Shown here piece by piece: positions 17,133 to 55,890 of a DNA stretch of 64,000 nt. How positions within the stretch are numbered: the first letter of the stretch is position 1; each line of letters begins with the position of its first letter. The position numbers were made by a program, and so were the translations under genes. The notes beneath the pieces were generated by a model, which worked only from the letters and a program-made list of their open reading frames with translations, did not search any database and was not told the origin of the DNA. The DNA is from Tilletiopsis washingtonensis (lineage: Eukaryota > Basidiomycota > Exobasidiomycetes > Entylomatales): contig NW_020312006.1 of assembly GCF_003144115.1 (NCBI RefSeq), positions 595,822 through 659,821 on the forward strand, read 5' to 3'.

Positions 17133-20100
17133 ATGACCGCCGTGGTGGGTGACAGCGCGGCGATGCGCGGCGACGGCATGGCCTCGCTGCCCTCGGCCGG
17201 CTCGCTGGCCGACCTGGCGCGCGGCTCGCCGGCGGCGGCCGAGTTCCCGCCGCAGCTGCTGCGCGAGTACCTCGAGCTGCTGCTGCCCGTCGTCATGGCC
17301 GCGACGCCCGCCAGCCTGGCGCGCACCATGTTCGCCGATGCCGGCGGCCGCGCCACGGGCGATTGGCGCGGCACGGCGCGGGCGTTCGCCTCGGACCCGA
17401 GCAAGAAGACGATCTACGTCGAGAAGCTGCGGCGGCAGGGCGAGTCGGACTCGGACAGCGGCGTTGAGCTCGGTGAGTGCTGAGACAGATGGAGGGCCCG
17501 GGCGGGCGCTGGCCGCTCTGTCGCGGCAGCTACACCCAGGTAGTGTGCAGCAGCAGCGTGCTCACGCTGCCATGTGTGTGCTCAGACTCATTCGTCTATC
17601 GCCTGGCATACGAGCCCTCGTACACGCCGAACCACATCTCGGCGATTGCGCTCGTGAAGCGCATCGACGTACTCGACCCCGAGGTGCCTCTGACGCAGCA
17701 GCTCAACCTCATGTCGCTCTTCGGGCCGGCGTCTGTGTCCGATGGGCCCGACGTGCGCGACGAAGCAGACGGCCGCGATGGCGAAGAGGCCAACGGCAAG
17801 ACCGTGGCGGCAGTGCACGAGTCGCCCTACGAGGCGCTCTACAGCGTGATGCACAACGTCATGGTGCCCTGGTTCGACGCGTACGTCACGTCCAAGGCGA
17901 GCGACAAGCAGGTCACGGCGGGCAGCCGCGCAGACGCAGACAACAAGGGTGAGTCGGCTGGTCTGCACAGCTCTGCGGCTGCGGCTCACCGATTGGCCGT
18001 CTAGCCATCCCAATGGCAAAGCGCCGCTTCAACGACCTCGAGAGCAGTCTCAAGCAGCTGCAGCAGAGCGTTGACGTGCGCACCGTCGAGCTCTACGTCA
18101 ACCCGCTCGTGCGTGCCGAGGTCGACCAGGCCGAGGCCGAGGGCCGCCAGCCGCGCATGGACAGCCTGCGCAAGGACGACAACGCGAGCATCGACGATGC
18201 GCTGCTCAACAAGCTCTCGAGCGAGGTCAACGGCTGGGCAAAGGAGGTCCTCTCCGTCACCACGCGTGACCACGACGTCGAGGCCGGCAGCGCCTGGCAG
18301 GAGGTCAACTTCTGGCTGGCCATGGACCGCGCCTTGGAGCACATCGAGGCGCAGATTGCGCGGACGGGCGTGCAGTTCACGCTCCGCATTCTGAACAACG
18401 AGAAGCGCTACCACGCCGTCGCTGCGTTCAGCGCGACGGGCGTCAAGGAGAAGCGCAAGGTGGTCAGCAACCACGTGCTGCTGATGCGCGACTTTCCGCT
18501 CGACGACCTCCTCTCGGCGACGGACCTGGACATGTGCTCCGAGGCGCTCGACAACATCTTCACGCACCTCATCAAGAAGCTGCGCATCAGCCCGTACCCG
18601 ATCAAGCGTGCGCTGCCGTTCGTCTCGGCCATCTCGCGCGACCTCAATGAGACGATGCGCAAGATCCTCGACTCGCACCGCCTCATGTTCCAGGACTTTG
18701 CCCGCTTCACCGACACGGTCAAGGCCGCGCAGACCGTCTTTACGCGCTGGGACGATCTGATGAAGGAGTTCGTCAACACGGCGCGCGAGGTCACGCGCAA
18801 GCGCGCCGAGAAGTTCATCCCGATCAAGGTGACGGCGCACCACAAGGCGCTCGCTGAGCGGCTCGTGTACATCTACAACTTCCGGTGAGTGCCTGCGCTG
18901 CAGGTGGCGCCCGCAGCGCTGACAAGGAGTCCCGCACACAGCTCGTCACACGACCAGCTGCGCGTCATGGTCAGCTCTGGGCGCAGCCTGTCGGCGCCTG
19001 CGCCTCGCGTCGGACAGGCGGCCGACGGGCAGGTGCAGAAGCACACCGGGCAGGACGTGGCGGGCATCGAGCTGGCCGAGGAGATCGAGGCTGCGTATGA
19101 GGCGATCAAGACGACCGACGTGCTCGACGTCAGCCCCGAGGGAACGCAGGTGTGGTCGCAGGCCGAGGCGGCATACAACGAGCGCGTGGCGCGCGTCGAG
19201 AACAGCCTCATTGCCCGGCTCCGCGACCTGCTCGGCCAGGCCAAGAGCGCGCGCGAGATGCTGCGCGTGCTGAGCCAGTTCAACAGCCTGTTTGTGCGGC
19301 CGAAGTGAGTGGGCTGCTGAGCGGCGTCGCCTTCGCAGATCGACTGACCCGCCTCTGCAGAGTCCGCGGCGCCGTGCAGGAGTACCAGCAGCAGCTGCTC
19401 AACAGCGTCAAGCGCGACATCCAGAGCCTGCACGACAAGTTCAAGGCGCAGTACCGCGCGTCGGGCGCAAATCACATGAGCCAGCTGCGCGACGTGCCGG
19501 AGATTGCGGGCGCCATCATCTGGGCGCGGCAGATCGAGCGCCAGCTGGACGTCTTTATGAAGCGTGTGCAGGACGCGCTCGGCGAAGGCTGGGACTCGTA
19601 CGCCGAGGGCAAGAAGCTGTCGAACGAGCGCGACACGTTCCGCCGCAAGCTCGACACGCGTCCGCTCTTCGACGCCTGGCTGCACGACATTTCGCGGCGC
19701 GAGCTGAAGATCAGCGGTCGCCTGTTCGACGTGACGCGCAACCGCGCCACGGACAGCTTCCAGCTCAGCGTCAACTTCGACCCGCAGGTCATCGCGCTGT
19801 TCAAGGAGGTGCGCAACCTGACGTGGCTCGGCTTTCCGATTCCACACGCTATCTCGAACTTCGCCAAAGACGCGAAGCGCGTGTATCCGTACGCCGTCAG
19901 CCTGATGGAGACCGTGCGCACGTACACGCAGACGTGTGCGCAGGTGCGCGCGAACCCGACCGTCGCCTGCCTCCTCGCGCAGGTGCAGAACGACGTGCAC
20001 GCGCAGATCTCGCAGGGCATGGCGCTGCGCTGGGAGAACTTTGGCACGGCCTACGACAGCCACCGCACGGCGGCGTACCTGCCCGGTGCGGTGGGAAACG

Positions 20101-23100
20101 AGGGCCTGGCGCGCGAGAACAAGCAGGTGCTCTTCGTGCGCCAGCTCGCGGGCAACGTCAGCCTGTTCCAGGACACGACCGACGAGCTCATCACGATGCA
20201 GCGCGAGGTCAACGCGGCCGTGGACGAGCTCTCCTCGTGCGCGTACACGCTCGAGGCTTTCTCGGCGCTGCTTGCGAAGATCCAGGCGACGATCGACCGC
20301 CTCAACCTCGAGGGCTACCCGAACCTGGACCACTGGGTGGCGGAGCTCGACTCGCGCATCGAGGCGCTGCTCCTCGAGCGGCTGAGACTGATCTCGGTGG
20401 CCTGGTGTGCCGCATTCGTCCGCGAGGACGACAGTGAGGGCAATGCTCGCGACTCGACAGCCGTCGCGCGCAAGGGCACCCGCAATGCGCCGCAAGCCAA
20501 GGTGAGTCGAATGATCGCGCGTCAGACTCGCTTGCTCACTTCCTTGTGCAGGCTGCCCTTGAGCGCGACCACGTCGGCCTGACGCCCGTCACGCACGAGC
20601 TCAGGATCCGCAACCAGGTCATCTACCTCGACCCGCCGATCGAGGACGCGCGTGCCAACTTCTACAAGCAGCTGCACGATGTGCTCGCCATCGTCTGCGG
20701 CCTGAAGCGCGTGCAGAGCTCGCGCTACGAGATCGGCATGCAGATGCGCAAGACGGACGGCAGTGCCACCGAGCAGTCGTACGTCTCGCTGCTGACGCGC
20801 TTCACCGACGACACGCTCAGCCGGCCGTTCACGCTAATCGAGCGCAAGGTTGGCGAAGTCGCGCAGTATGTGGCCAAGTGGCTGCAGTTCCAGGCGCTCT
20901 GGGATCTCGAGTCTGAGCACGTGTATGCGCGCCTCGGCGACTCGCTCGAGGACTGGCAGCGCCTGCTCTCGGAGATTCGTCGCACGCGCTCGACGTTCGA
21001 CAACTCGGACACGCAGCGCAGCTTCGGCATCGCTGTCATCGACTACGAGCAGGTGCAGAGCAAGGTCAACGCCAAGTACGACACATGGCAGCGCGACCTG
21101 CTCAACCGCTTCGGCACCAAGCTCGGCGCGGCGATGCGCGAAACGCACGCCGCCATTCGCCAGGCACGCGTCGAACTCGAGCAGCACAGCATCGAGGCCA
21201 GCTCGACGGCGCAGACCGTGGCGTTCATCACCTCGGTGCAGGACCTCAAGCGGCGCGTGAAGCGCTGGACGCCGCAGATCGCCGTCTTCGGGCAGGGACA
21301 GAAGACGCTTGAGCGGCAGCGCTACCTCTTCTCGCAGGACTGGCTCTACGTCGACCAGGTCGAGGGCGAGTGGAGTGCCTTCAACGAGATCCTTGCGCGC
21401 AAGAACGCCTCGATCCAGGAGCAGCTCGCCGGCCTGCAGATGAAGATCATCGCCGAGGACCGCATCGTGGCCGACAAGATTGAGCTCATCGTCGCGGAGT
21501 GGGAGGCGCAGAAGCCGATCCAGGGCACCATGCGTGCCGACGCCGCGATGAACACCATCGGCGTGTTTGAGACGCGCGTGACGAAGCTCAGCGAGGACCG
21601 CGATCTCGTGGTGCGCGCCAAGGAGGCGCTCGACCTCGAGCACACGGCAGACGACCGCCTGGAGCCCGTGGCAGAAGAGGTGCGCGACCTCAAGGCCGTC
21701 TGGACCGCCCTCTCCGGCACATGGAGCCAGCTGGCCGAGCTGCGCGAAGGCAACTGGAACAACGTGCAGCCGCGCAAGCTGCGCCAGCAGCTCGACGCCA
21801 TCCTCAACCAGACCAAGGAGATGCCGTCGCGCATGCGCCAGTACGCCGCGTTCGAGTACGTGCAGGACCACCTGCGCACGCTGCTCAAGGCGAACCCGCT
21901 CGTCGCCGATCTCAAGTCCGAGGCAATGCGCGAGCGCCACTGGCGCTCGCTGTTCAAGCAGCTCAACATCAAGTCGCACTACACGCCGAGCTCCATGACG
22001 CTCGGCACCGTGTGGGACCTCGACCTGAAGCGCCACGACGCAACCGTCAAGAGCGTCATCACCATTGCGCAGGGAGAGCTCGCGCTCGAAGAGTACCTCA
22101 AGCAGGTGCGCGAGGTCTGGACGTCGTACGACCTCGAGCTCGTCAACTACCAGAACAAGTGCCGCCTCATCCGCGGCTGGGACCCGCTCTTCACACAGGC
22201 CGGCGACCACACGTCGGCGCTGCGCTCCATGTCCAACTCGCCGTACTTCAAGGTGTTTGAGGAGGAGGCAAACCTGTGGACGGGCCGCCTCGAGGTCATC
22301 TCGCTGCTCTTCGAGACGGCGCGCGACGTGCAGACGAAGTGGGTCGACTGCTCCGGCATCTTCTCGGGCGCCGGCATCCGCCAGATCCTGCCGATGGAGT
22401 CGCAGCGTTTCCAGACCATCGACACGGAGTTCCAGGCGACGATGAAGAAGATCGTCAAGTCGCCCTTCGTGCTCGACGTGATCCAGCTGCCGGGCATCCA
22501 GGCCTCGTTCGAGCGCCTGCGCGACCTGCTGGAGAAGATGCAGAAGGCGCTCGCCGCGTTCCTCGAGAAGCAGCGCAACATATTCCCGCGCTTCTACTTC
22601 CTCGGCGACTCGGACCTGCTGAGCCTGCTTGGCTCGAGCAACGACATTGCGCGCGTCACGAGTCACCTCAAGAAGATGTTCCAGGGCGTGGCCTCGGCGA
22701 CGATCGACGAGGCGGACCAGACGCGCGTCCTGGGCGTTGTCTCGCCGCAGGGCGAGGCGGTGCTGCTCGGCACGCCGGTCGACACGAAGGGCGCAGCTGT
22801 GCACGAGTGGCTGCAGGCGCTCGAGAGCGAGCTGCGGCGCACCACTGCGCTCCGCCTTGCCGCCGCCCACGCAGAGCTGCACGAGATCCGCGAGTCCGGC
22901 ACCATCGCCAAGCGAGCCAGCGACTGGATTGGCGCGCATCCCGGACAGGCCCTCGTGCTCGCGCTGCAGCTCGAGTGGACGAGCATGGTGGAGGCCGCGC
23001 TCGACGGCGGCAACGTCGCCGATCTGCCCTTCCCTCAGGCCTTCTTGGACGAGCTCTCGGCGCTCGTGGTGCAGGACCTCTCGCCGCTGAAGCGCAAGTC

Positions 23101-26100
23101 GATCGAGAACCTCATGAGCGAGCTCGTGCACCAGCGCAACATCATCCGCGAGGTCGTCGAGGCGCGCAGCACATCGTCGGACGACTTTGCGTGGAAGAGC
23201 CAGATGCGCTTCTACTCGGCGCCGGGCTCTGACACTGCCGTGACGGTCTCCGTGGCCATGGCCGATGCGACGTTCGACTACGGCTTCGAGTACCTCGGCG
23301 TGCCCGAGTCGCTCGTCTGCACCGGCCTGACCACGCGCTGCTTCCTGACGCAGACGCAGGCGCTGTCCAAGGGCTTCGGCGGCGGTGCCGTGGGTCCTGC
23401 TGGTACCGGCAAGACGGAGACGATCCGCTTCCTCGCCACGCGTCTCGGCCTGCCGTGCTTCGTGACCTGCTGCGACGACTCCTTCGACGTCAAGGCGGTG
23501 GCGCGCGCGCTCATCGGCTCGTTCAAGACAGGTGCCTGGTCTTGCTTCGACGAGATGAACCGTCTCACGGAGACGACGCTCAGCAGCGTGTCGCAGGACC
23601 TGCTCGCCATCCAGACGGCAAAGCGCGCGGGCAAGAGCGCCATGATCTCAGGCCAGGAGGTGGTGGTCGCGCCGAGTGCGGCCGCGTTCATCACGCTCAA
23701 CCCCGGCTACAGCGGCCGTGTAGTGCTGCCGGCCTCGCTCGTGCGGCAGTTCCGCAACATCGTCATGTCCTCGCCGGGCCTCACGCAAATCGCAGAGGGT
23801 GAGCTCCATTCAGCGACCATGCTGATGCACTGCTGACTCGATTTCCCGCAGTCATGCTCTTCGCTCAGGGCTTCAAGACGTCTGGGCAGCTTGCGTCGAA
23901 GATCGTGCCGCTGTTCTCGCTCTGCGCCGAGCAGCTGAGCAAGCAGCCGCACTACGACTTCGGCCTGCGAGCGCTCAAGCAGGTGCTTGTGTCGGCCGGT
24001 CGCCTCGTGCGCGAGCAGCTCGCCAAGAGCCGCGAAGCCGGCGCAGACGCGAGTGTGGACATCGCCGCGCAGGAGCAGGAGATTCTTGTGCAGTCGGTCA
24101 TCGTTTCGGTCGCGCCCAAGCTCGTCGGGGATGATGTGACGCTGCTCACTAACCTGCTTGGCGACGTGTTCCCGGGCGTCATGCCTGCTGCGCACGACTT
24201 TGGCGCGCTGCGGACGCACATCGAGGCAGTCTGCGCCGAGCGGCACCTCGTCGCGGACGAGCTGTGGGTGTCGAAGTGTCTGCAGGTCTACCAGGTGTCG
24301 ACGATCTCGCACGGCCTCATGCTTGTCGGCCCGTCAGGCATGGGCAAGACGCAGGCGTGGCAGGTGCTGCTTGCCGCGCTGCAGCGCCACGAGGGCGTCG
24401 AGGCCGTCTCGTACGTCATCGACCCGAAGGCCGTCTCCAAGGACGCGCTGTACGGCACACTCGACCCGACGACGCGCGAGTGGACGGACGGCCTCTTCAC
24501 CAACGTGCTGCGCCGCATCCTCGACAATGTGCGCGGCGAGAGCGCCAAGCGCCACTGGATCGTGTTCGACGGCGACGTCGACCCGGAGTGGGTCGAGAAC
24601 CTGAACAGGTGAGCAGTCCGCATGGCACTCGGCGAGGCGGAGACTGATGCATCACTGCAGTGTCCTCGACGACAACAAGCTGCTCACGCTGCCAAACGGA
24701 GAGCGTCTCGACCTGCCGCCAAACGTGCGCATCGTGTTCGAGGTCGAGCACCTACGATACGCCACGCTCGCTACCGTGTCTCGCTGCGGCATGATCTGGT
24801 TCAGTGACGACAGCGTCAAGCCGTCGATGCTGTTTGCCAACTACCTCGGCTCGCTGCGCTCCACGGAGCTCGGCAGCGACGACGACGACGCGCTCACTGC
24901 CCGTCGACTGGGCGGCGCTGCGGCAAGCGCGCTGAACGACGTCTCGCCCAACCTGCTCACGCAGCGCGTCATTGCCGACGCCATCGCGCCCTTCTTCGAG
25001 CGAGGGGCGCTCGTCGAGCTCGCGCTGGAGTACGCCGCCGGCGTGTTCCACATCATGGACTTCATCGTGGCGCGCGCCCTCTCGACACTCTTCTCGCTCG
25101 TCAACAAGACCGCGCGCAACGTGGCCGACTACAACGCGCTGCACCCCGACTTCCCGCTCAGCGTGCAGCAGGTGCAGTCCTACGCCACGAAGCGGCTCAT
25201 CGTCGGCCTCGTCTGGGCCTTCACCGGCGACTCGAAGCTCGACGTGCGCGCGCAGATGGGCGAGTTCCTGCGCGACAACACCGGCCTCGAGCTGCCGCCG
25301 CTCGGCAACGGCGCCTCGCTCATCGACTACGACGTGCAGGTCAGCACGGGCGAGTGGTTTGAGTGGGCGAGCCGCGTGCCGACCGTCGAGATCGAGACGC
25401 ACGCCGTCGCCAGCGCCGATGTCGTCATCCCGACGATGGACACGGTGCGCCACGAGGAGGTGCTGTACTCGTGGCTCTCCGAGCACAAGCCGCTCATGCT
25501 GTGCGGCCCGCCGGGCTCGGGCAAGACGATGACGCTGTTCAGCGCGCTGCGCAAGCTGCCCGACCAGGAGGTCGTCGGCCTCAACTTCTCGAGCGCCACG
25601 ACGCCGGAGCTCATCCTCAACACGTTCGAGCAGTACTGCGAGTACCGCAAGACGCCAAACGGCGTCGTGCTGTCGCCGCAGCAGATGGGCCGCTGGATCG
25701 TGCTCTTCTGCGACGAGATCAACCTTCCGGCGCGCGACAACTACGGCACGCAGCGCGTCATCTCGTTCCTGCGCCAGCTCGTCGAGTGCGGCGGCTTCTG
25801 GCGCGCCTCGGACCTGGCGTGGGTCACGCTCGAGCGCATTCAGTTCGTCGGCGCGTGCAACCCGCCGACGGACCCGGGCCGTGTGCCGCTGAGCCACCGC
25901 TTCCTGCGCCACGCGCCGCTCGTCATGGTCGACTATCCCGGCGAGGTGTCGCTGAACCAGATCTACGGCACATTCAACCGCGCGCTGCTCAAGCTCACGC
26001 CCAACCTGCGCGGCTACGCCGAGGCCCTCACGTCGGCCATGGTCGACTTCTTCCTCGCCTCGCAGCGCCGCTTCACGCCCGACATTCAGGCACACTACGT

Positions 26101-27295
26101 GTACTCGCCGCGTGAGCTCAGCCGCTGGGTGCGCGGCCTGTACGAGCACCTCAAGCCGATCGACGACACCGTCACGCTCGAGGGCCTCGTGCGAGTGTGG
26201 GCGCACGAGGGCCTGCGCCTCTTCCGCGACCGTCTTGTTGGCGAGGACGAGAAGGGTGAGTAGCGGCTAGCTTCGAGTCCCGATGTGATGCTGACCTTCT
26301 CGCAGAGTGGACGGACCAGCAGCTCGATCAGACGGCGCTGATGCGCTTCCCGACGGTCGAGCAGAACGCGCTGCAGCGGCCCATCATCTACAGCAACTGG
26401 CTCACGCGCAACACGAGCTCCGTCGGGCTGGACGAGCTGCGTGCGCACACCGTCGCGCGCATGGCGCAGTACAGCGAGGGTCAGTTGGGCTCACTCGTCG
26501 CGCTCTCCAGCGGTGCTGACCACCTCCGCTGCAGAGGAGCTGGACACGAAGCTCGTGCTGCACGACTCGGTGCTCGGCCTGGCCACGTCCGTCGACCGCG
26601 TGCTGCGCCAGCGGCAGGGCCATCTGCTGCTCATCGGCGCCTCGGGCAGCGGCCGCACGACGGTGACGCGCTTTGTCGCCTGGCTCGTGGGCCTGAGCGT
26701 CTTCACCATCGCGCCGAGCCGCAAGTACGGCATGGCCGAGTTCGACGAGGACCTGCGCACGGTGCTGCGCCGCGCGGGCACGCAGGGCGAGAAGATCTGC
26801 TTCATCATCGACGAGGCGCAGATCAAGTCGCCCGCCTTCCTGGAGCGCATGAACAGTGAGTGCCTTGCGGTAGCCAAAAGCTGCTTTCTTGCTCATATGT
26901 TGTTCCTCTCCAGCGCTGCTCGCCAACTCCGAGGTGAGCTGCTTGTGTTGCAGGCACGCAGCACAGCCACTGATGCGCGATCTCCACGCAGGTGCCGGGT
27001 CTTTTCGAGAACGACGAGTACTCGGCGCTCATGACGGCGTGCAAGGAGGGCTCGCAGCGCGACGGCCTGATGCTCGACTCGCCCGAGGAGCTGTACAACT
27101 GGTTCTCCTCCGAGATCGGCAAGAACCTGCACGTCGTGAGTTGCTGCTCGCGCACAAATGTCTGAACGCACAGCCGCTAACTGCCCGCGTCGCCCGTCGC
27201 AGGTCTTCACGATGAATGTGCCCGAGTCGGGCGTGAGCTCCAAGGCCGCCGCCTCGCCAGCGCTGTTCAACCGCTGTGTGCTCCTCTTCCTGTAG
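17133..27295 (+). CDS. dyn1: cytoplasmic dynein heavy chain, N-terminal half (split gene 1)
   Basis: Exons 17133-17472, 17586-17948, 18005-18884, 18942-19304, 19361-20501, 20552-23798, 23852-24608, 24661-26255, 26306-26479, 26535-26855, 26914-26933, 26992-27135 and 27203-27295 give 3145 residues. They carry the dimerising tail, the linker and the ring from AAA1 to the large part of AAA4. P-loops are AAA1 GPAGTGKTE (about residue 1977) with Walker [12 protein letters not shown]2 GPSGMGKTQ (about 2271), AAA3 GPPGSGKTM (about 2645) with FCDEINLP, and AAA4 GASGSGRTT (about 2988), where the Walker A lysine is arginine. The protein stops after [13 protein letters not shown], the point where an unsplit dynein continues into NWFGDWS. 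The stalk, AAA5, AAA6 and C-terminus are absent and are supplied by dyn2 at 50931-55890. Exon 11 is only 20 bases. Product: minus-end-directed microtubule motor. The stop lies 40 bases from DPH4. Confidence 0.95.
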
Positions 27296-27335: not shown

Positions 27336-27894
27336 TTACGTCTCTGCTCCGTCTGGTGCATCGAGCAGCACGCGGATGACCAGACTGCATCCGCTGCACC
27401 CCACGAGGTCATGGCCCGCCTCGAGTTCGCGCAGCTCGACGACGTACGCGCTGCCGCAGCGGCAGTCGAGCTTGAAGCGCAGCTGCGCTGCCTGCTCCTG
27501 CACATCGTCGGCAGACGCGACCAGCTCAAAGGCGTCGATGTCCACCTCGGCGCTGATGCGCACGCTGGTGCTCGCCGCCAGCGCCGCCTGCTCGCGCCGC
27601 TTGAGCGTGGCGTCGTACTCGGCGCGCGCGCTGGGCACGGAGAGGACGCCGTACGCATGCGTGATGCGCGGCATGTGCCCGTCCAGCGCGGGGCTCGCGC
27701 CGGGCTGCTGCTTGTCCGGGTGGTGCTGCGGCAGGCAAAGCATACTCAGCGCATGCGTTCGGGTCCACGACGGCTCCACGCACCCTTCGTGCGGCGCTCA
27801 GGTAGGCCGCGCGGATCTCGGCGGGCGAGGCGCGCGCCGCGACGCCGAGCACATCGTAGAGACTCTCGTCGGGCACGGGGCGCCGAGAAGTCAT
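27336..27894 (-). CDS. DPH4: DPH4/Jjj3 J-domain protein for diphthamide synthesis
   Basis: Exons 27894-27784 and 27725-27336 give 166 residues, the usual size for the family. Dph4 is a J-domain co-chaperone with a CSL-type zinc/iron-binding domain that supports diphthamide formation on elongation factor 2. The J domain begins SLYDVLGVAARASPAEIRAAYL; its second half opens at the splice join with HHPDK, which carries the HPD motif. The C-terminal CSL domain has four cysteines in the pattern C-R-C ... GC-S-GC, with SLVIRVLL after it. The 58-base intron has a GTGCGT donor and a CCGCAG acceptor. Its stop codon is 40 bases from that of dyn1 on the other strand, and it shares a 322-base divergent promoter with the methyltransferase gene. 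Confidence 0.87.
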
Positions 27895-28216
27895 GGGCCG
27901 GTGCGCTGCATTGAGCGGGCTGTGCAGTGAGCTGCGGTGCCTGCACACGTCTGGCTGCGGAGGGACAGGTGCGGGCTGTGGAGGGGGGATGATGGTGGAG
28001 CGAAAGGAAGCGCGCGAAGGATGCGCTAGCGGATCGCACATTCCCGATCCCACGCTGCGAGCGGCCGACGGAGGCCGATGCTCCCGCCAAGGCCGGCCGG
28101 GCAAGTCCGCCTCTCAACCCCGCGCCCTCCACCGCCTGGGGCTCGAGTCAGCATTCATAAGGCAGCTATTGTCGCACACGAGCGTTGCCAGCTCAACACC
28201 ACAACAAGCAGCAAGC
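27895..28216. promoter_or_regulatory. divergent promoter region, DPH4 / methyltransferase
   Basis: A 322-base spacer between two start codons. A weakly AT-richer patch (about 28148-28170, with CATTCATAAGG) lies 50-70 bases upstream of the methyltransferase ATG and could be a core promoter element. Nothing else stands out. Confidence 0.45.
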
Positions 28217-29323: not shown

Positions 29324-29550
29324 GGATGCCTTGTGCTGCGAGTCAATGCCATGTGTGATGCCGCCAGCGCACAGGCAGGAGCATGAGTTGGAGGGGGAGC
29401 GTGCTCTGGCTGCGGCCGCTGCAGGACGCCGAGGAGGCGCCGACGAGCGCCGCCTCCACACGCGCGCTTGCTCCGTGCGCCAAGCCAGCGGCCACGCTGT
29501 GCCTTGCCGGCCGCAGCAGCGTCGCGCCTTGCCTCCGCACCACCACCAGC

Positions 29551-31136: not shown

Positions 31137-31179
<43 letters not shown>

Positions 31180-44307: not shown

Positions 44308-46335
44308 TCAGGCATCGCCCAGCGCATCAGCGGCCGCCTGGCCGCCGGGCACGACGACGCCGGCGGGCGGCGGCGGCGGCAGCACGAGCTGCGTCGACCA
44401 CGAGCTGAGGCCCCAGGCGCGCCCGCCGACGCGCGTGCCGCCGAGGATGGGCTGCGTGCCGCCGAGAGTGCCGGCGCCGCCGGGCAGGAGGGGACGCTCT
44501 GCGATCTGTCGAGTTGCGCAGCGAGGTTCAGCCTCTGCTCCGCCTTTCCTGCGGTGCTCTCGCGTCGATACTCACGCGCTCAACGACGGCACTCGTGGGC
44601 TGCAGGTGCGTCGGGAAGTGCACCACGTTCGTCGCGGGCTCGTAGAGGCCCATGGGCGTGAGGATGCGGCGCTTCTTCAGCTTCTGTCTGCTGCGCGCCG
44701 ACTCTTCGGGCGCCGGGCGCGGCGAGCCAATGCCGTCGGTGGGCGGCGCCATTACCGAGTCGACGCCCTTGCTCTCCTCGTTGCGCGGAGGAGCAGCGTC
44801 TTCCTCGTCGCTGTCGCGGTCGACGTAGCGCGGGTACGGCACGAGGCGCTGTCGCCGTGCCGCGGCAAGCTCGTCGTTCATGGCCTGCGTGCTGCGCGCC
44901 ATGTGCAGCATCCAGTTCTCCTCGGTGACGTTTGCGCCGTTGAGCTGTGCGCGCTGCTTCTGCCGGTCGTCGGCGCGCACCCACGGCGCCAGCCCGGAGT
45001 CGCCGTACAGCGTCAGGTACATGTCGCCCGTGATGGGGTCGTTCCAGCGGTGCTCGAACATGTCGCGCCGCTGCCGCGCGCGGTTGCGCTCCTTCTCTGC
45101 CTCGCGATCGCGCCCGCCCGGCGCCCGCCGCGAGCCGCCTTCCTCGCCCGCGTCCTCGTCCATCGCCTGGTACGTCGTGGCGCCGCCGCGCTCCTGCTGC
45201 CGCTTCAGCGCCGCAGCCTCCATGTAGTCGTCACGCACCGCACGGCCCTCTGCTCAATGTCAGCGACGGCTCAGCGCACGGCGCAACACATCCGCAACTC
45301 ACGCCGCACGCAGTTCTTGCCGAACAGCTTGAAGACATTGCGCGCCGCGACGACGGCGACGTTGCGGCCCTTGAGCTTGGCGTCGACGTGGCCGCTCTCG
45401 ATGAGCATGGCCTTCTCCGTCTGCGTGAGGAAGCAGCGCACGAGCGTGGGCGTCTTGCGGAAGAAGTAGAGCGAGTCCTTGAAGCCGACCATGCGCGCGG
45501 CGTCGATGGAGAGGAAGTACTGCCGCTCCGGGTCGGAACGGTACGGCGAGGTGAACGTCGTCGTGCGCCACTCGCGGCCTGTGCAGGGCGTGAGAGAGAG
45601 GTCAAGCGCGGCAGCTGCTGCTGCGACTCACCGCCGAGCAGATTGCCGTGCTTGTCAATCTTCTTCTCGCCCTCCTCGTCCTCCTCCAGCACGAGCTCGT
45701 CGCCCGTGAGCGTGTACTCCTGGCCGTGCACGCGCACCTGCTGCGTGATGTCGACGCTCGGGTCTTCGCCGTCGCCGACCGTCTTGTCTGCCGGCGGCGC
45801 CGCCGCCGGGCTCTGCGCCTCGTCGCCCTGCTCGTCCTCCGAGTCCTCAATGGCGCGCTTCTTGCCCTTCTGCGGCGCCGGACTGGCGCTGGCCGAGGCG
45901 CTGGCCAGCTTGCTCACGCGCCCACGCTTGTCCTTTGCGCCGCCCTTGCCGAGGCGCGCCGTCATGTTGAAGAGCGAGAGGTGGTAGGACGTCGAGTTGC
46001 CCTTGATCGTCTTGGCCTGGTTGGCGGGCAGCAGCGTCGTCTGCCCGAACTCGGCGACGAGAATGAACGGCGGGCCCGTCGCGGGGTCCGGCAGCTCGCC
46101 CGTGGCGTGGGCGCTGCCGCGCTTGCGTGTCGAGGGCACGGCGTGTGCGGCACGGCCGCTGGACGAGGCGCCCGAGCCCGAGGCGCCGTCGTCGGAGCCG
46201 CCGTCATCGTCGGAGCGCTGCTCCTCGTCGGGCTCGCCCTCGCCGTCCTCCTCGTCATCGTCGCCGCGCGGCTGCTGGCTCTCATCCTCGCCTGCGCCGT
46301 CGTCTGGCTCACCCTCCCCGTCCTCGTCGTCATCA

Positions 46336-46372
<37 letters not shown>

Positions 46373-46646
46373 GCTCGTTGCGCGGCGCGCGTCGCCGGCT
46401 GGCAGGCGGCGGCGCCGAGCCTTCGTCGTCCTGGCTCTCGTCGTCGTCCTCTGCCGCCCGACTGGCGCCGGCGCGCCCTCTGCGCGGGCTGGCGATGCTG
46501 GCGCGCCCACGCGAGCGCGAAGACGAGGCTGCAGCACGCGAGGCACGCGCTCGCGGCGAAGGAGCGGCGGGCTCGGGCGACTCGTCGGGCGAGAGGGCGT
46601 GCGGGCGGCGCACGGCGACGCGCAGGCGCTGCGGGCGCTGCGACAT
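44308..46646 (-). CDS. RSC7/SWP82-like chromatin-remodelling complex subunit
   Basis: Exons 46646-45632, 45578-45303, 45249-44576 and 44505-44308 (minus strand) give 720 residues. Rsc7/Npl6 and Swp82 are paired accessory subunits of the RSC and SWI/SNF nucleosome remodellers. The first 200 residues are disordered, with a basic Ser/Arg region followed by an acidic run of about 15 aspartates. The family core spans exons 1 to 3: FILVAEFGQTT, YHLSLFNMT, then EWRTTTFTSPYRSD, QYFLSIDAARMVGFKDSLYFFRK and GRNVAVVAARNVFKLFGKN. The third exon has DDYMEAAALKRQQERG, and the C-terminus contains GGTRVGGRAWGLSSWST. A single gene of this family is common in basidiomycetes, so I do not assign it to one complex. 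Confidence 0.85.
46321..46374 (+). repeat. poly-aspartate microsatellite in RSC7-like gene
   Basis: Runs of GTC/ATC triplets on the plus strand (mostly a six-base CATCGT unit) encode an uninterrupted aspartate tract on the minus strand. The triplet repeat preserves frame and is a likely length polymorphism. Confidence 0.85.
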
Positions 46647-47523
46647 GCTGGGCGAGCAGTGGTGGGTGGCGCGGCGAGGCGGGGTGCGGCTGCGCTGTGC
46701 GCGAGGTTGATGAAGATGATGTGGTCGGGAAGAAGCGAGGCGCGCGTCGCTCGCTGCTCGGCACGCGTCGTGCCGGCGAGCTGCCCTCGACGGCGCAGGC
46801 AGCTGCACGGCACAGGCGAGTTTCCGGCATGGCGCATCGCGCTGCGCGCCATCTTCCTCTCCACTTGCTCGCCCTCATCCCACCTCATCCTTCCCGCGGC
46901 CATCTCGCCGCACGGCCCTCCCGCTTGCCTCATCCCTCAGCCGGCGCGGCTGCACACCGCCGCCGTCGGCCGCGTGCGCGGCAGTGCGACGGGCGCAGCC
47001 GGCGCGCATCGCATCGACCGCATCTCGCACGCCGCCGCCGCGGCCGCCCACCGCCGCCGCACACGTCTCTCTCTCTCACCCTCACTCCGACGCCCGACAC
47101 CGCGACACCTCTTCTCTGCACATTCGAGCGCGCCATTGTGCGAAGTCCTCGCAGCAGCGGCACGCCTCGCCGTCCGCAGCAGCGGCACGCCTCGCCGTCC
47201 GCAGCAGCGGCACACCTCGCCGTCCGCAGCAGCGGCACATCCCGCCGTCTGCAGCAGCGACTGCGCCGCGCGTCCCCTTCTCGCCCTCACTCCGACACCT
47301 CGACACCTCGACACCTTCGCTTCTGCGTAATCTCGGACGCTCCACTGCGCCTCGCGTAAGAGCGCGGCACTGCGTCTCATCTCTCTGAGCGCAGCAGTCC
47401 GTCTCGTCGCCCTCGTGCGCATCCTTCTCGCCCTCACTCCGACAGCTCTTCGTCTCCGACTCTTCGTCTCCGGCTCCTCGACTCTACGTTCTTCGATAGC
47501 TGCGCGCACGGCGTGCGGCTGCG
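46647..47523. promoter_or_regulatory. divergent spacer, RSC7-like / low-complexity gene
   Basis: 877 bases between two start codons. It contains the 25-base minisatellite at 47152-47259 and three scattered copies of a CTCGCCCTCACTCCGACA-like phrase (about 47080, 47271 and 47430). Otherwise it is C-rich on the plus strand. No gene is seen. Confidence 0.5.
47152..47259 (+). repeat. 25-base minisatellite, four copies plus a partial
   Basis: Units at 47152-47176, 47177-47201, 47202-47226 and 47227-47251, then an 8-base partial. The consensus starts CAGCAGCGGCACGCCTCGCC. The first two are identical, the third differs at one base and the fourth at three. The unit is not a multiple of three, which fits a non-coding position in the divergent spacer. 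Confidence 0.92.
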
Positions 47524-49320
47524 ATGGCTGCGAGTCAGGATGCAGGCGGGTCTGATGTGAGTAGCCATCTGCTCATCGAGCGTAGCGAGGAGCAAGCGGG
47601 GCTGATCGGCAATCTCGCGGCAGCGCGAGCGCTCCGAGTCGCCCATCTTCGTCAGCATCGTGCCGGCGCGCAAGCGCACGCGCAATGCGACGCAGGCCGC
47701 CGGGCAGCAGCAGGAGCAGCAGCAGCACGCAGCGCTCAAGGAAGAGACGAGCAGCCCAGTGAAGCGCACGGCGCCGGCGTCAGCCGTGCCGCCCGTGCCC
47801 GCGCCCTCGTCGGCTCCTGCTGCGCCGGCCTCGCCCGCGTCTCCAGAGCTGGCGACGCCGTCAGCGCTTGTGCCCTCTGCAGCGGCCACGGCCGCCTCCG
47901 CAGCATCGGCGTCCGCAGCAGCAGCGCCAGCAGCAGCACCGGCGTCGACATCAGCTGCGCCTGCGCTCGTCCCGGCTGTGCCGGACGCTCCCGCTGCCGC
48001 TCCGCTCTCTGCCCAACCTGCGCTCGCCTCGGCTGCGCCGGACACGCGCGCAGCGCCTGCGCAGCCCTCTGCCGTCGCTTCCGCACCGGCAGCAGGAACG
48101 TCGGCTGCGCCATCAGCGTCGCCAGCACCGGCAGCACGGAGGACAAACATGCGCTCGCTCTCGCCCGCCTCGATGGCTGCACTGCCGATGCCGGGCCCGA
48201 GCGACGGCGCGCTGCCAATTGCGGCGCTGCAGCAGCTCAAGGACGTCCATCTTCTCACGCGCGCGAAGTACCTGCGCGCCGTGCTCGACACGATGCTCTC
48301 TGCGCGCGCGGATGGCGTCGTCATCAACGAGCGCTTCCTCGGTGACTGCATCTCCGCGCACCAGAAGATCATTGACACGCTGAAGCTGCAAGCCGCGCGT
48401 CAGCAGACCGCCTCTGCCGCCGCCGCTGCTGCGCAGGCATCGCGCTCGTCGCCGGTCCGCGCTGCAGTCCAGCCTCCGCAGCCCTCTGCGGCAGACAGCG
48501 CTGCCGCCGCAGCACCGCCAGCAGCGGACGGCGCTGCTGATCGCTCTCCGCAGGGCGCAGCGGCGGACAGCACTATGACGCCACCTCTGCAGCGCTCGCC
48601 CTCGCCGCCGCTCCGCGCCGTCGCTCCGCCTGCGCAGCCCTCTGCTGTCGCTTCGCCTGCGCAGCCCGCTGCTGTCGCTCCGCCTGTGCAGCCCTCTGCC
48701 GTGGCTCCGCCAGCGCAGGTCTCTGCTGTCGCTTCGCCTGCGCAGCCCGCTGCTGTCGCTCCGCCTGCGCAGCCCTCTGCCGTGACTCCGCCAGCGCAGG
48801 TCTCTGCTGTCGCTTCGCCTGCGCAGCCCGCTGCTGTCGCTCCGCCTGCGCAGGCCTCGACCTCATCGGTGGTCTTCGCTACCCGCGCGCCGCTGGCTGG
48901 CAGCTCGCTGCCGGCAGCGCAGGGATCGCCGTCCGCAGCGCCGCCAGCACAGCCTGCACAGCCTGCACAGCCTACACAGGCCGCTGCACACGCCGTCGCG
49001 CAGCTGCCGCCGCAGAATGCGGCAGCGGTAGCCGGGCCCTCTTCGGCGCAGCGCACCTTTGAGGAGATGAGCAGGCAGGTCCGTCTCCAGCTGCAGGCGC
49101 AGTACGACGCCCTGCACGGACGACCGCAGCCGCAGCCGCAGCCGCAGCCGCAGCCGCAGCCGAAGATGCCGCAGCAGCAGCACTCGCAGCAGCAGCACCC
49201 GCAGCAGCAGCGCCATCAGCAGCAGCACGACCAGCAGCAGTACGTCGCGCCTGCTTTTCCGCCCGGCTTCCCGGTGCCGCCGTCTGTCTTCCCGACGTCG
49301 CTGCCGCCGCAGCAGCAGCG

Positions 49321-49351
<31 letters not shown>

Positions 49352-50815
49352 CGGCCGTCGGGCTTCCCGCCTGGCTTCTCGTCGGCGCTGCCGTCTGTCA
49401 TGTCGCCGCAGCAGCACTCGCCGCAAGCCACGAGCTTCTTGCCGTCGCAGCACATGCCTCCTCGACATCCGCCGCCGCTGCCGCAGCGACAGCAGCAGCA
49501 GCAAGCAGCGCCCCCAGCGCACACATCCTCCGGCTTCCCTCAGCCGCAGCACTCGCCACAAGCGACCAGCTTCTCGCCTTCGCAGCAGCAACCGCCGCAC
49601 GGGACCTTCCCGCCGCCGCCGCATCAGCAGTCGTCGTCAGAGTCGCATCTGCATGCTCGTCACGAGTCCCAGGCGCGCGAGCAGGTCTTTGCGCCTCGCT
49701 ACCTGCCAGCGTCGCTCGCAGCTGCGGAGCAGGCCTGGGCAGCAGCAAGCAGCACGCCGTCGTCGGCGTTGTCATACGAGACGCCGCAGCAAGAGGCTCT
49801 GCGGCAGGCTGCTACACGCGGCATTGCGCGTCTCGTCGGTGGCTCGAGTGCGCTTCTGCTGCTCGACCGCGACTCGCAGGAGCACCGCCACGCTCTGAAG
49901 AATCACGCGTCGCAGATCCGCGCCCTCGTCAACGCAGAGACGGCGCGGCAGAAGGCAGATGCCGAGGCGGCGCGGCAGAAAGCAGAGGCTGCAGCGCCAA
50001 AGACAGGAGAGAGCGCAGCGCCAAGCGCAGTAGCAAGCGCAGCAGCGTATTCGGCGTCAAGGGCAGCTTCGAGCGCAGCGGCAGAAGCAGCATCCGACGC
50101 AGCTAAGGCGCGCCAGCTTGGCGAGAGCGCCGCAACAGACGCAGCTAAGGCGCGGCAGGTCGGCGAGAGCGCCGCAACAGAAGCAAAGAGAGCGCTGCAC
50201 GCGCTGAGGGACCTCGACTACCATCCCGTCGTGCAGGCGCTGAAGCAGGAGAACGCGTCGCTGCGCAAGATCATCGACGCGCTCGTGACGCGCGTCGACG
50301 CTCTCGAGAGTGCGCCGCAGGCTGCAGCCGCCTCGGAACCGGCCGCGCCGCCGCCACCGCCGCCGCCGCCGCCGACGACGACATTAGTGGCTAGCCCCAG
50401 CGACGTGCAGCGCCAGAGCCGCAGCACGTCGCTGAGCAGCGCCGCTCCCGCCACATCTGTGTCGGAGAAGCGCGCGCGCGAGTCCTCTCCTGCGCAGTCC
50501 GGCTCGGAGGAGGAGCTGGCGCCGCGTAGCGCCAGCGCACGAGGCTCGCACCGCACCAAGAGACTGCGCCTCCAGCCCCTAGAGAGCGACGACGACGACG
50601 ACGAGATCAACGACGACGGCAATGATGCTCCGCCAGAGCCACGACGCCTCTCCATCGAGCCCAACAGCGGCTTGAGCAGCGTCGACACCGTGGAGGTGCC
50701 GACACTGCGCGCTTCCGCCTCGCGCGCCTCTGTCTCGCGCGCGTCGTCCTCGTCGTCGCGCACAAAGACTCCTTCACGAAACGTGATGCGGCCCAGATCG
50801 CAGTGGCGGGACTGA
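47524..50815 (+). CDS. large low-complexity Gln/Pro/Ala-rich protein of unknown function
   Basis: Exons 47524-47556 and 47624-50815 give 1074 residues. The frame has no ATG near its beginning, so I place the start in a small first exon (MAASQDAGGSD) joined by a 67-base intron with a GCTGAT branch site to RERSESPIFVSIVPARKRTRN. I recognise no domain. The only ordered-looking parts are a stretch near residues 180-240 (LQQLKDVHLLTRAKYLRAVLDTML, then RFLGDCISAHQKIIDTLKLQ), which looks helical, and a coiled-coil-prone part near 770-900. Between them are Ala/Pro/Val repeats, a QP run and poly-Gln. The C-terminus is Ser/Arg-rich with KRLRLQ and could be nuclear. The stop codon lies 115 bases from the dyn2 stop. 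The helical block might bind a partner, but that is a guess. Confidence 0.65.
48644..48859 (+). repeat. 81-base tandem repeat within the low-complexity gene
   Basis: Units begin at 48644, 48725 and 48806, the last one partial. Each full unit encodes 27 residues of the type AVASPAQPAAV followed by APPAQPSAV and a PPAQVS end. Units differ at only a few bases, which points to recent duplication. Confidence 0.9.
49125..49350 (+). repeat. CAG/CCG-rich Gln-Pro and poly-Gln coding region
   Basis: Alternating CCG-CAG (Pro-Gln) followed by several CAG blocks, including a run of about ten glutamines near 49318-49350. It lies in the disordered middle of the protein encoded at 47524-50815. Confidence 0.85.
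50096..50179 (+). repeat. 42-base direct duplication in the low-complexity gene
   Basis: Two copies at 50096-50137 and 50138-50179 encode DAAKAR-QLGESAAT and DAAKAR-QVGESAAT. The 14-residue unit is Ala/Lys/Glu-rich and likely helical. Confidence 0.9.
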
Positions 50816-50930: not shown

Positions 50931-53900
50931 CTATGCCGCCCGAAGCGCGACGGCGCGCTGCGCGACCGTGCTGGCCACGAGCCCCTGTGCGGCCGGCAGT
51001 GCGAGGCTGAAGAGCGTGGCGCCGCGGTCGCCGTTCAGGTAGACGGTGACGGGGACCGACGAGTCGGTCGTGCCGTCCTGAGCGCGATCCTGCGCCGTCG
51101 CTGACTCGAGCCAGACGAGACTGCTGCGCCCGAGCGCGATCGTAGAGCCGTCGTTGAGCGTGAGGTGGCCGTCTGCCGACCACGTGGCGCCCTCGAGCTT
51201 GAGCCCTGCAGCGGAGCATGTCAGTGCCGCTTCGCACGCCGGCTTCGACGTGCTCACCTTGCAGAGAGAAGCCGCCGCTGGCCTGCCCGTCGTCGTTGAC
51301 GCGCAGATCCAGACGCAGGTTCTCCAAGCTGACTCGTGTGCGCCTCGCGACTGCCTGCCGCGTGGCGGTAAGGTAGGCGCCAGGCGTGAAGAGCAAGCCA
51401 AGCGTGACGGCAAAGCGCTCGAAGCTGTCCGTGCGCGTCACCTCGTCGAGCTGTGCCAGACGCTGCGCGAGATCGGCGACCCACATGCCCAGCGACATGG
51501 CCTTGGGCACGGGATACTTGCGCCACGTCGTCGGGATCGTGCCTGCATCGACGGCATCAGCGTGCGGGCTCGCCTGCGCTTTTGCTGCAACGCACCCTTC
51601 GTCAAGTCGCTGAGCAGTGCGCGATTGTGGTTCGTCTGCCGTGCCTCGCCAGAGCAGACCGAGATGACCTCTTCGAGGTCGCGGCGAACGAGCTTGAGCA
51701 GCTCTGCTCCCGAAGTGTGCTCGCGCGCCCAGAAGCTGATCGGCACGGGACAGTCAGCCCATGCATGATGACCGACGACGGATGCACTCACCGGAACAAC
51801 GGGTCGCCGATGCTGTTGGCGCCGCCCCTGAGCGATGCGATCTTCTGCGGCAGAGCGGCGAGCCAGTCGGCGGCGTTCTGGCGCAGCGCCTGCATCCACT
51901 GCGGCTGAGTCGCGCTGCTGGCCACGGCGTTACTGCTGCCCGGTCCGGCAGCTGCAGCGCCCTCGATTGGCGCCGCCACTGTCTCGTCGTCGTCGCTCAA
52001 CTGGCGCATGCGCACGAGCTTGTTGAGCAGCGCAGCACCCTGCGCAGTTGCGATGACGCGCTCTGCTGTCGGCGGCAGCGAGAGCCACTGCGGCGGCTGC
52101 TGGTCGGGCAGCTTCTGGATCCACGCCATGAACTGATCCATCTGCGTGCCCTCCGGCGCGATGAGCGGCATGTCCGGCGAGTCGACGAGACGGAAGGCCT
52201 GCTCGTACGCGAGCGGCGTGAAGATGCCATCGACGAACGAGTCGAGCAGCAACTGGTCGGCGGGGTTGTCGATCTTGCCACCGTACACGCTCTGCTTGAG
52301 AAGCGCACGCAGCGCCGGCCACGGAATCGTCGCCGGATCGATGTTCGCGCGGCCCTTGGCGACGCGGTTGACCCACGTCTCGATGACGTCGAGGGCCATC
52401 TCTGCATCGCTGTCGTTGAACTCGAACGCCTTCGACCAGCCGAGCGGCGTGTAGCGCAGCCGCTCAGTGAGCGTGGCGTGGAAAAAGGAGAGCAGGAAGA
52501 AGAGACGCATCGCTTCCGCCGGGCAGCTCTGTATCCGCGCCGGCGGGATGCCGCGCAGGTTGTCAAGCATACTCGCCTTAAGCCCCGGCGGCGGCTCGTT
52601 CATGAGGATGCGACTGGCGCGCAGGAAGCTGACCGGGATGACGGGGCTCGTCTCGCAGGTGAGAAAGAGCCGGAAGCTGCGGTTGAGGCCCGACGACGAG
52701 ATCTTCTTCTCGAGCTGGCCGAGCCACGCCGGCGCGAGGTGCACGTTCTTGAGCAGCACCCACTGGCCAGTGCGGGCGCCCGTCGTGATGGCCTGATCTG
52801 CGAGAGCGAAGCCCTCCTGCGAGCCCATCGCGACCGAGATGCAGCGCACGTCTGCCGCTCGCGCCAGGTTGTCCACGCGATAGCTCGGGTCGAAGCCCGG
52901 CACCGCACACAGCGCGACGGGCGTCTGCGCATTGACCTCGTCGGCGACGATGCGCTGCAGATCGTACGCAGTCTCCGAGAGAATGTCGGTGCCGAAGACG
53001 GCAGTGATGAGCTTGGCCATGGCGGGCGCGATGCGGTCGGGCCGGAGACACTTGATGACGAGCAACTCGCGCACCAGGCTGACGAGCTCGCTGCTCTCCT
53101 CCCAGAAGTGCGGCACGGCTGCCTCAGGCGCCGGCGCCGTCAGGAATGCCTGCCATGCGTCGACATCGCCCTCGATGTGCGCCGCCAAGTCGCGGAAGGT
53201 CGCGAGGCGGCGGTACGCCTGGACGCGCTGCTTCTGCTCTGGCGTCAAGAGCGCATCGAGCGTGTCCGAGCTGCTTGAGGCAGGCTGTGCGACGGCATCA
53301 CCGCCTTCGAGAAGGAACGCAAACTCAGCACCATCCAGCGCGTCTGGCTCCGCGCCTTCACGCGCCCAGACCACCGCCAGCAGCGTGGCGAGGAGGACGT
53401 GGTCGTGGTGGGCGAGCGCGCGGCTCGTGCGCTGGTACACGAGCAGAAACAAATCCTTCGTCAGGATGTCGAGCCGCTGGTGGTGGTCGGTGACGCCCTT
53501 GAGCCGCGCATTGCGATGCAGCACCTGGTCGAAGATGTCGAGGAAGAAGCGCAGCGAGAACTGGTAGAAGTGGCTGATGACATGCAGCTGGTCGAGGATG
53601 AAGAAGAGCGAGGAGCAGGCCTTGGCGAGCGGCACATACTGCGCCGTCACCTCGTCCACCTCGGCCATGACGGCGTCGGTCTCCTCGACCTTGCGCGTCA
53701 CCTCCTTTGCCTCCTTCTTGAGCGTCTCGAGCGTGTCGATGACCTTGTCGTCGTCGAGGATGTTGCCCTCGCTCTCGTTGAGCGCCACGAGCAGGCTCTT
53801 CTCCAGATGCCGCAGCCGCAGCCGGAACTCGCCCTGCAGCTTCATCAGGTCCGTGCGCTTCTTGTCCGTGTCGGGCCGCTCGCTCTTCAGCACCTGGTCC

Positions 53901-55890
53901 AGGCTCTGGCTCTGCAGCGAGCCGCGCGTCATGGTGAAGTTGACGAAGGTGACGCGAGAGCAGACGTCTGGCGAGAACTCGACGGACGGGTCTCGCGTGG
54001 AGAGGAAGAGCGTGAAGCTCGGGCTGAAGTCGATCTCCTGCGCGCCGAGGCGGATGAGCACGCGGCCGCCGGTCTTGCGCAGCTCGTTGTTCAGCACAGC
54101 ATTGACGATCGGGTCGAGGTGCTCCGCATCCTGGATCAGCAGCGGCTGGCCGAAGCGCAGCGCCGACTCGAGGTTCTTCAGGAACGCGCCGTCGAGGAAC
54201 GAGGTGACGACGAGCTTGCGCTCCTTGTACTCGTTCATGAGGAAAGCCGTGGCCTGGCCCGACGGGTCGAGCAGCAGCGGATAGCGCTTGAAGCGGCGCA
54301 ACATGATGGCGTTCTCGCACGCGAGCGTATCGGCCGGCAGACTCTTGCTCTGCCAGTCGAGGCGCTCATCGGCCGTGCTGAGATAGTCGACGAAGCCGAG
54401 CTCCGGCTTGAACTTGATGCCAACGCGCGACAGGTGCTCCGTCCAGGCGCTCCACATGCCCTCGCGGTACTGCTGGTCGAAGTAGCCCGCGTACGTGAGG
54501 AAGGCCGCGGACAGCAGCGCGTCGCCGACGATGGTGCTCATCTGCGCGTCGAACGTGCGACTGCCAGCGTCCCAGCGCGTCTTCTCGGACCCGAGGCTGT
54601 CCAGCAGCTGAATGCTGCGGTTCACGCGCGTCTGCACACGGCCCATCTCGCTCTTGATCGCCTGCGTCTCGCTGATGAGCGCGGCATACTCCTCCTTGTA
54701 GCGCGCGATGTCCTGCTCCGTCTGCTCGATGATGCGCAGGCCCTCTGCTGCCTGTGCCTGCGTGTTTTCGGCGTCTAGCTGCAGCTGCTCGACCTCGTCG
54801 CGCAGCGGCCCGACGGCGTCGAGGATCTCGGAGTAGCGCACCTGCGCAATGACCCACTTGGCCAGCGGACCGCACGCCTTGGACGCGCGGTTGATCTGCT
54901 CGAAGTTGTAGTCGGGCTTCGAGAGGTACTCGCGCTTCATCTTCTCGCGCACGCCGCGCGTCATCTGCCGCTCCGTGTCGAAGTTGACGATGGAGGAGAT
55001 GAAGTCGTCGCGGCGGATGATGCCCTGCACCGTCTTCCACGACTCGACCTTGTGGCCGAGGGCGATACACACGCTCTCCATCGCGTTCTTGACGGGCAGC
55101 GGTGGGTTGCCCATCGAGCGCACCTCGGTGAGGTGCTGCTTCTTGATGTTGCTCACCGCCGCCTGTGCGTCGAGCACGGCCGGCTCGGCATCGGCTAGCT
55201 CGGCCTCGACCTCGGAGCGGCGAATGGCGATGCTCTTTTCCGACTCGACGAGCATCGCTTGCAGCTCGATCGACGCCGCCTTCTTCTCCTCGGCAGACTT
55301 CTGGTCGGCGACCATGCGCTGCAGCTTCTCGTTGGCCTCGGTGTTCTTGGCCTTGAGCTGCATGTCCTTGACAGCGAGCGACTTGCGCAGCTCTTCGACA
55401 GCGAGCACCTGAGACAAAGAGGCTCAGCAAGGCGCTGCATGGCCCATCCGACACCACGCCGACTCACCGTCTCTTGCAGCTTGTCCAGGCCAACGTTCAG
55501 ATGCCGCTGCTCCTCCTCCAGGCCCGAACGCTTCTCAGTCGACAGCGCAACATCTACAAACCTAGCAGTCAGACTATGACTTGATCCGCAGCTCACGATG
55601 CGAGCCTGCTCCGCCCGTCACGCCCACTCACAGTGGTGAATGAGGTCGAGGAACGACCGCGGACCCATGTGCAGCCGGCGCCCCTGGCGGCGCTTCAGGC
55701 GCTCGGCAGCATCGTAGACGGAGTAGTGCACGTGCACGAGGGCATCGATGACCTCGGGCGCCGAGGGCCCGAGATCGAGGCCCTCGCACAGCTCGCTGGC
55801 GACAGTGCGGTACGCGGCCGGCGACCAGTCGCCCGGCAGCTTGGCGTGCGCGGCCGAGCCGCTGGCCTGACCCAGCACGGCGCTCGGCAT
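50931..55890 (-). CDS. dyn2: cytoplasmic dynein heavy chain, C-terminal half (split gene 2)
   Basis: Exons 55890-55632, 55553-55468, 55408-51792, 51735-51596, 51542-51258 and 51205-50931 (minus strand) give 1553 residues. The start is the only nearby in-frame ATG. After an 18-residue leader comes KLPGDWSPAAYRTVASEL, the small-domain part of AAA4, then the HVHYSVYDAAERLKRRQGRR block. The stalk follows: coiled coil 1 with RHLNVGLDKLQET and VEELRKSLAVKD, the microtubule-binding domain (about residues 190-325, with SMGNPPLPVKNAMESVC and DFISSIVNFD) and coiled coil 2. AAA5 (GDALLSAAFLTYAGYF, PLLLDPSGQAT), AAA6 (LLVIKCLRPDRIAPAM, then WVLLKNVHLAP) and the dynein C-terminal domain complete it. It has none of AAA1-AAA3 and no tail, so it can only work together with Dyn1. 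It is convergent with the low-complexity gene and divergent from CWC27. Confidence 0.95.

Follow-up and report, generated by a model that had tools for sequence, protein, structure and literature searches.

Within a 64,000-nucleotide stretch of the Tilletiopsis washingtonensis genome (NW_020312006.1, forward-strand positions 595,822 to 659,821; referred to here as the window, in whose coordinates all positions are given) lie two genes, dyn1 and dyn2, that together encode one cytoplasmic dynein heavy chain. The genes are on opposite strands, 23.6 kb apart and spanning 39 kb in all. Spliced models rebuilt for this work are identical in position and length (3145 and 1553 residues; Table 1) with those of an earlier note made from the sequence alone, and confirm its placement of both halves in a single interval. 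The tail, linker, AAA ring, stalk with microtubule-binding domain and C-terminus characteristic of cytoplasmic dynein-1 are all present across the two proteins jointly: the largest exons of dyn1 match Pfam DHC_N2 and AAA_6, with AAA_8 also matched, and those of dyn2 match the MT stalk, AAA_9, Dynein_heavy and AAA_lid_11.

Separating the two proteins is a break after SPALFNR and before GDW, between the large and small subdomains of AAA4, the position characteristic of the Ustilaginomycotina. From tail to motor Dyn1 is uninterrupted, and the Agaricomycetes-type tail break (at about residue 1180) is absent. The N-terminus of Dyn2 in the spliced model is MPSAVLGQASGSAAHAKLPGDWSPAAY. In alignments with the unsplit human dynein-1 (4646 residues), the last 1033 residues of Dyn1 reach residue 3092, and residues 42–1535 of Dyn2 align with residues 3137–4627; as the first 41 residues of Dyn2 contain the GDWS piece lying between 3092 and 3137, the halves are complementary without overlap, and the statement that they share no duplicated segment holds. 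We consider it fairly likely that a local inversion through the heavy-chain gene split it, and that its relic is kept at this locus, with complementary halves and an altered AAA4.

Table 1. Features of the dyn1–dyn2 locus, in window coordinates.
Feature	Position	Strand	Description
dyn1	17133..27295	+	13 exons, 3145 aa; spliced GT-AG model (12 introns); tail, linker, AAA1–AAA3, AAA4 large subdomain
dyn1 introns 1–6	17473-17585, 17949-18004, 18885-18941, 19305-19360, 20502-20551, 23799-23851	+	
dyn1 introns 7–12	24609-24660, 26256-26305, 26480-26534, 26856-26913, 26934-26991, 27136-27202	+	
AAA4 Walker A of dyn1	26636..26659	+	GASGSGRT; Arg codon 26654-26656 where other dyneins have Lys
Dyn1-side split point	27254..27295	+	C-terminal residues, then stop
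dyn2	50931..55890	-	6 exons, 1553 aa; spliced GT-AG model (5 introns); AAA4 small subdomain, stalk with microtubule-binding domain, AAA5, AAA6, C-terminus
dyn2 introns	55631-55554, 55467-55409, 51791-51736, 51595-51543, 51257-51206	-	
Dyn2-side split point	55632..55890	-	start Met, short leader, GDWS..., shortened AAA4 small subdomain
J protein with CSL zinc finger, DPH4-like, 3' part	27339..27797	-	Zn_ribbon_CSL over cut-off, DnaJ below; convergent with dyn1, ~40 bp from its stop
Methyltransferase-domain open reading frame (ORF)	27893..28720	+	Pfam Methyltransf_25
Short-chain dehydrogenase exons	29359..30501	+	adh_short; first ORF over cut-off, second below
DWNN-domain exon	33074..33421	-	Pfam DWNN
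Ankyrin and DIL domain gene	33498..36938	+	Pfam DIL, Ank; linkage marker
Rsc7/Swp82-like chromatin remodelling subunit exons	45274..46808	-	Pfam CRC_subunit
Low-complexity ORF, putative coding	47660..50815	+	1051 aa, Ala/Pro/Gln-rich; no Pfam match; convergent with dyn2
Cyclophilin exon	56074..56631	+	Pfam Pro_isomerase; divergent from dyn2, ~0.2 kb from its start codon

The dyn1–dyn2 pair accounts for every heavy-chain match in the genome. Searches of the 18.7 Mb (32 contigs, six frames, the best candidates alone scored) gave one place each for DHC_N2, MT and Dynein_heavy, all of them in this pair; AAA_8 matched two neighbouring exons, both of Dyn1, and the Dyn2 protein as query matched three exons, all of Dyn2. 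No third or intact heavy chain was found among the best candidates scored in this assembly, the completeness of which is not stated; within those limits, the intact gene elsewhere that would contradict a split, as the earlier note had put it, is not there. A tblastn search of the rest of the window for remnants of the two halves gave none that is credible, the best outside match having an E value of 0.039. These searches bear on an origin by duplication and complementary loss, in which the whole gene acquired a nearby inverted copy and a different part then disappeared from each of the two. Two near genes running in opposite directions, both with a promoter, would result from such a history as well, but no remnant of the missing part lies beside either half, though an old event would have erased it, and in the relatives read the junction of the halves falls at one and the same point, without overlap; we hold this origin to be improbable.

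The split is of the known Ustilaginomycotina type, old and common to relatives. Among 120 listed Dyn1 rows, 23 stop directly after SPALFNR as in the window and 97 continue; the 23 include Ceraceosorus, Exobasidium, Tilletia, Tilletiaria, Microstroma, Jaminaea, Sporisorium and Kalmanozyma, and by the literature all split rows form one clade. At the start of Dyn2 a leader precedes GDW in 29 pattern-measured rows among the 39 top relatives (P0002–P0040); of the ten outside the pattern, judged by eye, eight agree with the measured rows in leader, GDW and short loop, and two (P0024, P0038) are without the N-terminus. Domains and shared split point confirm a split heavy chain of the Ustilago type, as had been proposed. 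One of three independent splits of the heavy chain in Basidiomycota is thereby represented here (PMC4540427). The genome is a draft of 32 contigs, in which a mis-join or false inversion might have brought the halves together; given that 23 Dyn1 relatives and 29 measured Dyn2 relatives have matching split ends, and that an assembly of Ceraceosorus bombacis puts both halves and the DIL gene on one contig size, such an artefact is very improbable.

P0001, a protein of 1209 aa from a JGI metagenome, is 100% identical over 78% of Dyn2 (51791-55423), showing that the window fungus or a near strain is present in metagenomes; the closest named species among the matches listed has 73% identity in Dyn2.

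Flanking the break on both sides are alterations of AAA4 that set the split clade apart. In the window, and likewise in all 23 split Dyn1 rows, the seventh position of the AAA4 P-loop is occupied by Arg, versus Lys in 96 of 97 unbroken rows (the other has a gap) and in 24/24 rows of the Dyn2 search that hold an unbroken AAA4; the window thus lacks a lysine that is usual in, but does not strictly define, cytoplasmic dynein-1. The AAA1 and AAA3 P-loops of the window, GPAGTGKT and GPPGSGKT, have their lysine, which is kept at both sites in 23/23 split rows, and the AAA2 motif was located, with Lys, in 22 of the 23. The threonine following the AAA4 arginine is also gone from five split rows (GRA in four, GRG in one), four of them forming the Microstroma–Jaminaea group of the tree and the fifth not included in that tree. 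Two residues after the Walker B Asp-Glu stands Gln in 23/23 split rows, versus Asn in 97/97 others. On the Dyn2 side, the stretch from GDW to PRxFLD measures 57 residues in the window and in 29/29 measured split relatives, versus 78 for 116 of the 120 unsplit rows, a shortening of the AAA4 small subdomain by 21 residues in these split proteins. The four exceptional unsplit rows measure 83, 83, 77 and 59; the last (P0189) is without a different stretch and is possibly a gene-model error. In AAA5 the motif SRVTF, which we take to be the arginine finger, is present in 37/39 Dyn2 rows. Loss of the AAA4 sensor II arginine with the 21 residues was considered and dropped: sensor II sits at the start of helix H7 (PMC4047620), and PRxFLD, read as that start, is kept. 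Since the split rows form one clade, the AAA4 changes amount to one evolutionary correlation, not many.

According to PMC7683685, blocking ATP binding at AAA4 stops the movement of yeast dynein, and Dictyostelium dynein keeps about 40% of its gliding speed. As yeast dynein requires ATP at AAA4, the split motor is predicted to be re-wired and should work differently; gating by AAA4 ATP is probably weakened or gone in it.

Lying between the halves, the gene with ankyrin and DIL domains (the DIL gene) served as a linkage marker; the low-complexity ORF was discarded for this use. A scan of the large Dyn2 exon against genome and viral contig collections found no relative. Because the scans found no relative DNA, neighbour order in relatives was derived from contig sizes and locus tags: the size of the longest contig holding each protein cluster was taken as a fingerprint, and from equal sizes we infer one contig. 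A contig shared in this sense gives no distance, and differing contigs, in drafts or in clusters pooling assemblies, are not proof of different chromosomes. Dyn1, Dyn2 and DIL of C. bombacis all have a contig size of 834941 bases. Sizes are equal for Dyn1 and DIL in Exobasidium rhododendri (5450147; tags 003246, 003184), in Pseudozyma flocculosa (869508; tags 03705, 03633) and on a 44337-base metagenome contig, and for Dyn2 and DIL on a 116863-base contig and on large contigs of Sympodiomycopsis and Parajaminaea (5778576, 9859025). The unsplit heavy chain of Rhodotorula kratochvilovae likewise shares a 1711606-base contig size with DIL. As a control, one list of sizes was shifted by 1 to 1000 bases either way (2000 offsets). 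Coincidences at zero shift numbered 1 for Dyn1–Dyn2, 4 for Dyn2–DIL and 5 for Dyn1–DIL, with shifted means of 0.04, 0.12 and 0.03 and a maximum of 2 each, so that both DIL comparisons exceed every shifted offset.

In trees of the three proteins, with several deeper forks open and long outgroup branches in that of DIL, the window is sister to C. bombacis (Ceraceosorales; Dyn2 100/100, Dyn1 100/100, DIL 100/98). Both proteins of the 116863-base contig fall beside Parajaminaea (Microstromatales) and both of the 44337-base contig in the Exobasidium/Meira group (Exobasidiales); the joint placement of each pair agrees with the common organism that a shared contig requires. DIL accompanies Dyn1 in one order, Dyn2 in a second, and the two together in Ceraceosorus and the window; the simplest explanation is an ancestral trio that was later parted, and close dyn1–dyn2 linkage is probably ancestral to several orders. 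The halves could instead have parted early and been reunited by chance through a later translocation in the Ceraceosorus lineage, in keeping with Dyn1 and Dyn2 contig sizes that differ in seven of eight named relatives, Ustilaginales included, and with the different chromosomes on which the Ustilago maydis genes reportedly lie. That course would need extra coincidences to account for the pairing of DIL with Dyn1 in the Exobasidiales group and its pairing with Dyn2 next to Parajaminaea, and a chance landing within 24 kb, for which our own arithmetic on two unrelated genes in 18.7 Mb gives about 0.3%; we regard it as unlikely.

Under the inversion that we favour, presumably an old one, AAA4 would have been the site of one cut in a heavy-chain gene on the plus strand, and the DNA between this and a second point downstream would have been turned round. 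The outcome would be Dyn1 on the plus strand, its neighbours turned, and Dyn2 on the minus strand, its broken 5' end now the far limit of the turned stretch, with the two ends at 27.3 and 55.9 kb; the locus has this form, with opposite strands, complementary halves and broken ends at both ends of the segment that would have been turned. Dyn1 would have retained the old promoter and acquired a stop, and Dyn2, reversed, would have acquired its own start. In this species the two proteins would then have to assemble without a peptide bond at AAA4, rebuilding the six-module ring. The halves would have stayed close here and on one scaffold in the sister Ceraceosorus, one half being carried off later in other orders, and AAA4, at the seam, would have changed, its Walker A Lys giving way to Arg and its small subdomain losing 21 residues. 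Predicted by the same event is that the DPH4-like gene once adjoined the cyclophilin gene, and that the 3' end of the heavy-chain gene formerly stood opposite the low-complexity ORF. More tentatively, we propose as a joint possibility that the break in AAA4 cost dynein one of its three regulatory ATP switches, that the ring seam at AAA4 is non-covalent, that AAA4 ATP no longer releases the linker, and that the causal inversion site persists in the 39-kb locus.

Several observations weigh against parts of this account. Its geometry, on which the inversion rests, would be shared by half of random arrangements, and the broken ends of dyn1 and dyn2, when compared, show chance-like matches of 11-16 bases and no scar; such matches, like the absence of remnants, are what an event of whatever kind would be expected to leave if old. 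The single Dyn1–Dyn2 coincidence is not above the shifted maximum of 2, though the same contig holds DIL, and the distance between the halves in C. bombacis could reach 835 kb. A hand tally of named relatives, many of them drafts, has Dyn1 and Dyn2 sharing a contig size in 1/8, Dyn1 and DIL in 3/8, and Dyn2 and DIL in 3/12. Among outgroups, many also drafts, the heavy chain and DIL share a size in 1/10, the nine that differ being Rhodosporidiobolus ruineniae and lusitaniae, Sporobolomyces salmoneus, two Tulasnella, Plicaturopsis, Sistotremastrum, Rhizoctonia and Kwoniella shivajii. Contigs of 5.8 and 9.9 Mb make the Dyn2–DIL pairs on them weak evidence of linkage. As to AAA4, its Walker B Asp-Glu is retained in 23/23 split rows, and arginine can sometimes bind nucleotide.

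Besides the assigned genes, further ORFs lie between the halves, and an ABC transporter and RICTOR are found to the left of dyn1. The gene that ends beside the dyn1 stop we take to be DPH4-like, and the DWNN exon is presumably that of an Mpe1/RBBP6-like gene. Between dyn2 and the cyclophilin gene is what appears to be a very short, shared divergent promoter region (55890-56074). Beside the ABC transporter, on the minus strand at 13729-14253, are weak GatF/Gta3/GatC-like matches below cut-off.

The question touched by this locus is how the gene of a motor of about 4,700 residues survives a cut in the middle of its mechanical ring. Where the halves have remained together they offer a testable history, that of a single inversion, in which the predicted ancestral neighbours are the DPH4-like gene, the low-complexity ORF and the cyclophilin gene. 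The AAA4 change connects the gene break with motor chemistry: yeast dynein needs AAA4 ATP (PMC7683685), and the split relatives read are all without the P-loop lysine. If gating is indeed lost, the AAA4-split clade would be a natural experiment against a requirement for AAA4 ATP in dynein motion. The earlier note missed both this substitution across the split clade and the probably ancestral arrangement, and is incomplete in these respects. Its suggestion that the arrangement was undescribed stands for the short distance and for the occurrence in an AAA4-split lineage, and fails for opposite-strand linkage as such, which is already known for Agaricomycetes (Schizophyllum commune, 413 kb; PMC4540427); what is new is thus the former two. 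In a search confined to open-licence literature, no description of the 39-kb linkage or of the AAA4 Lys-to-Arg change was found, and Straube 2001 may remark on the fourth P-loop; within that literature the close linkage and its probable ancestry, like the AAA4 change, seem new.

The relatives read, Ustilaginales included, have the break point of the window. In Ustilago maydis dyn1 and dyn2 reportedly lie on different chromosomes, in contrast to their closeness on opposite strands here. The split in AAA4 is the same, giving an N-terminal two thirds and a C-terminal third (Straube et al. 2001, cited in PMC4540427 and PMC7373426), and the U. maydis halves form one complex according to PMC4540427, citing Straube 2001. 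In S. commune, dhc1 and dhc2 likewise divide the heavy chain between two genes that share a scaffold and run in opposite directions, but the split is in the tail (residue 1180), the genes are 413 kb apart and the origin is independent (PMC4540427); its AAA4 is unbroken, with the P-loop Lys. In other Agaricomycetes the halves also share one scaffold, up to 500 kb apart, and orientation is not conserved, according to the same paper. Wallemia, too, has a two-gene heavy chain, but one split between AAA1 and AAA2 (PMC4540427), and its row (P0044) has an unbroken AAA4 with Lys. The AAA4 K/A mutants of yeast and Dictyostelium replace the same P-loop lysine by a laboratory alanine (PMC7683685), whereas in the window the replacement is a natural arginine, in a ring that is open at AAA4.

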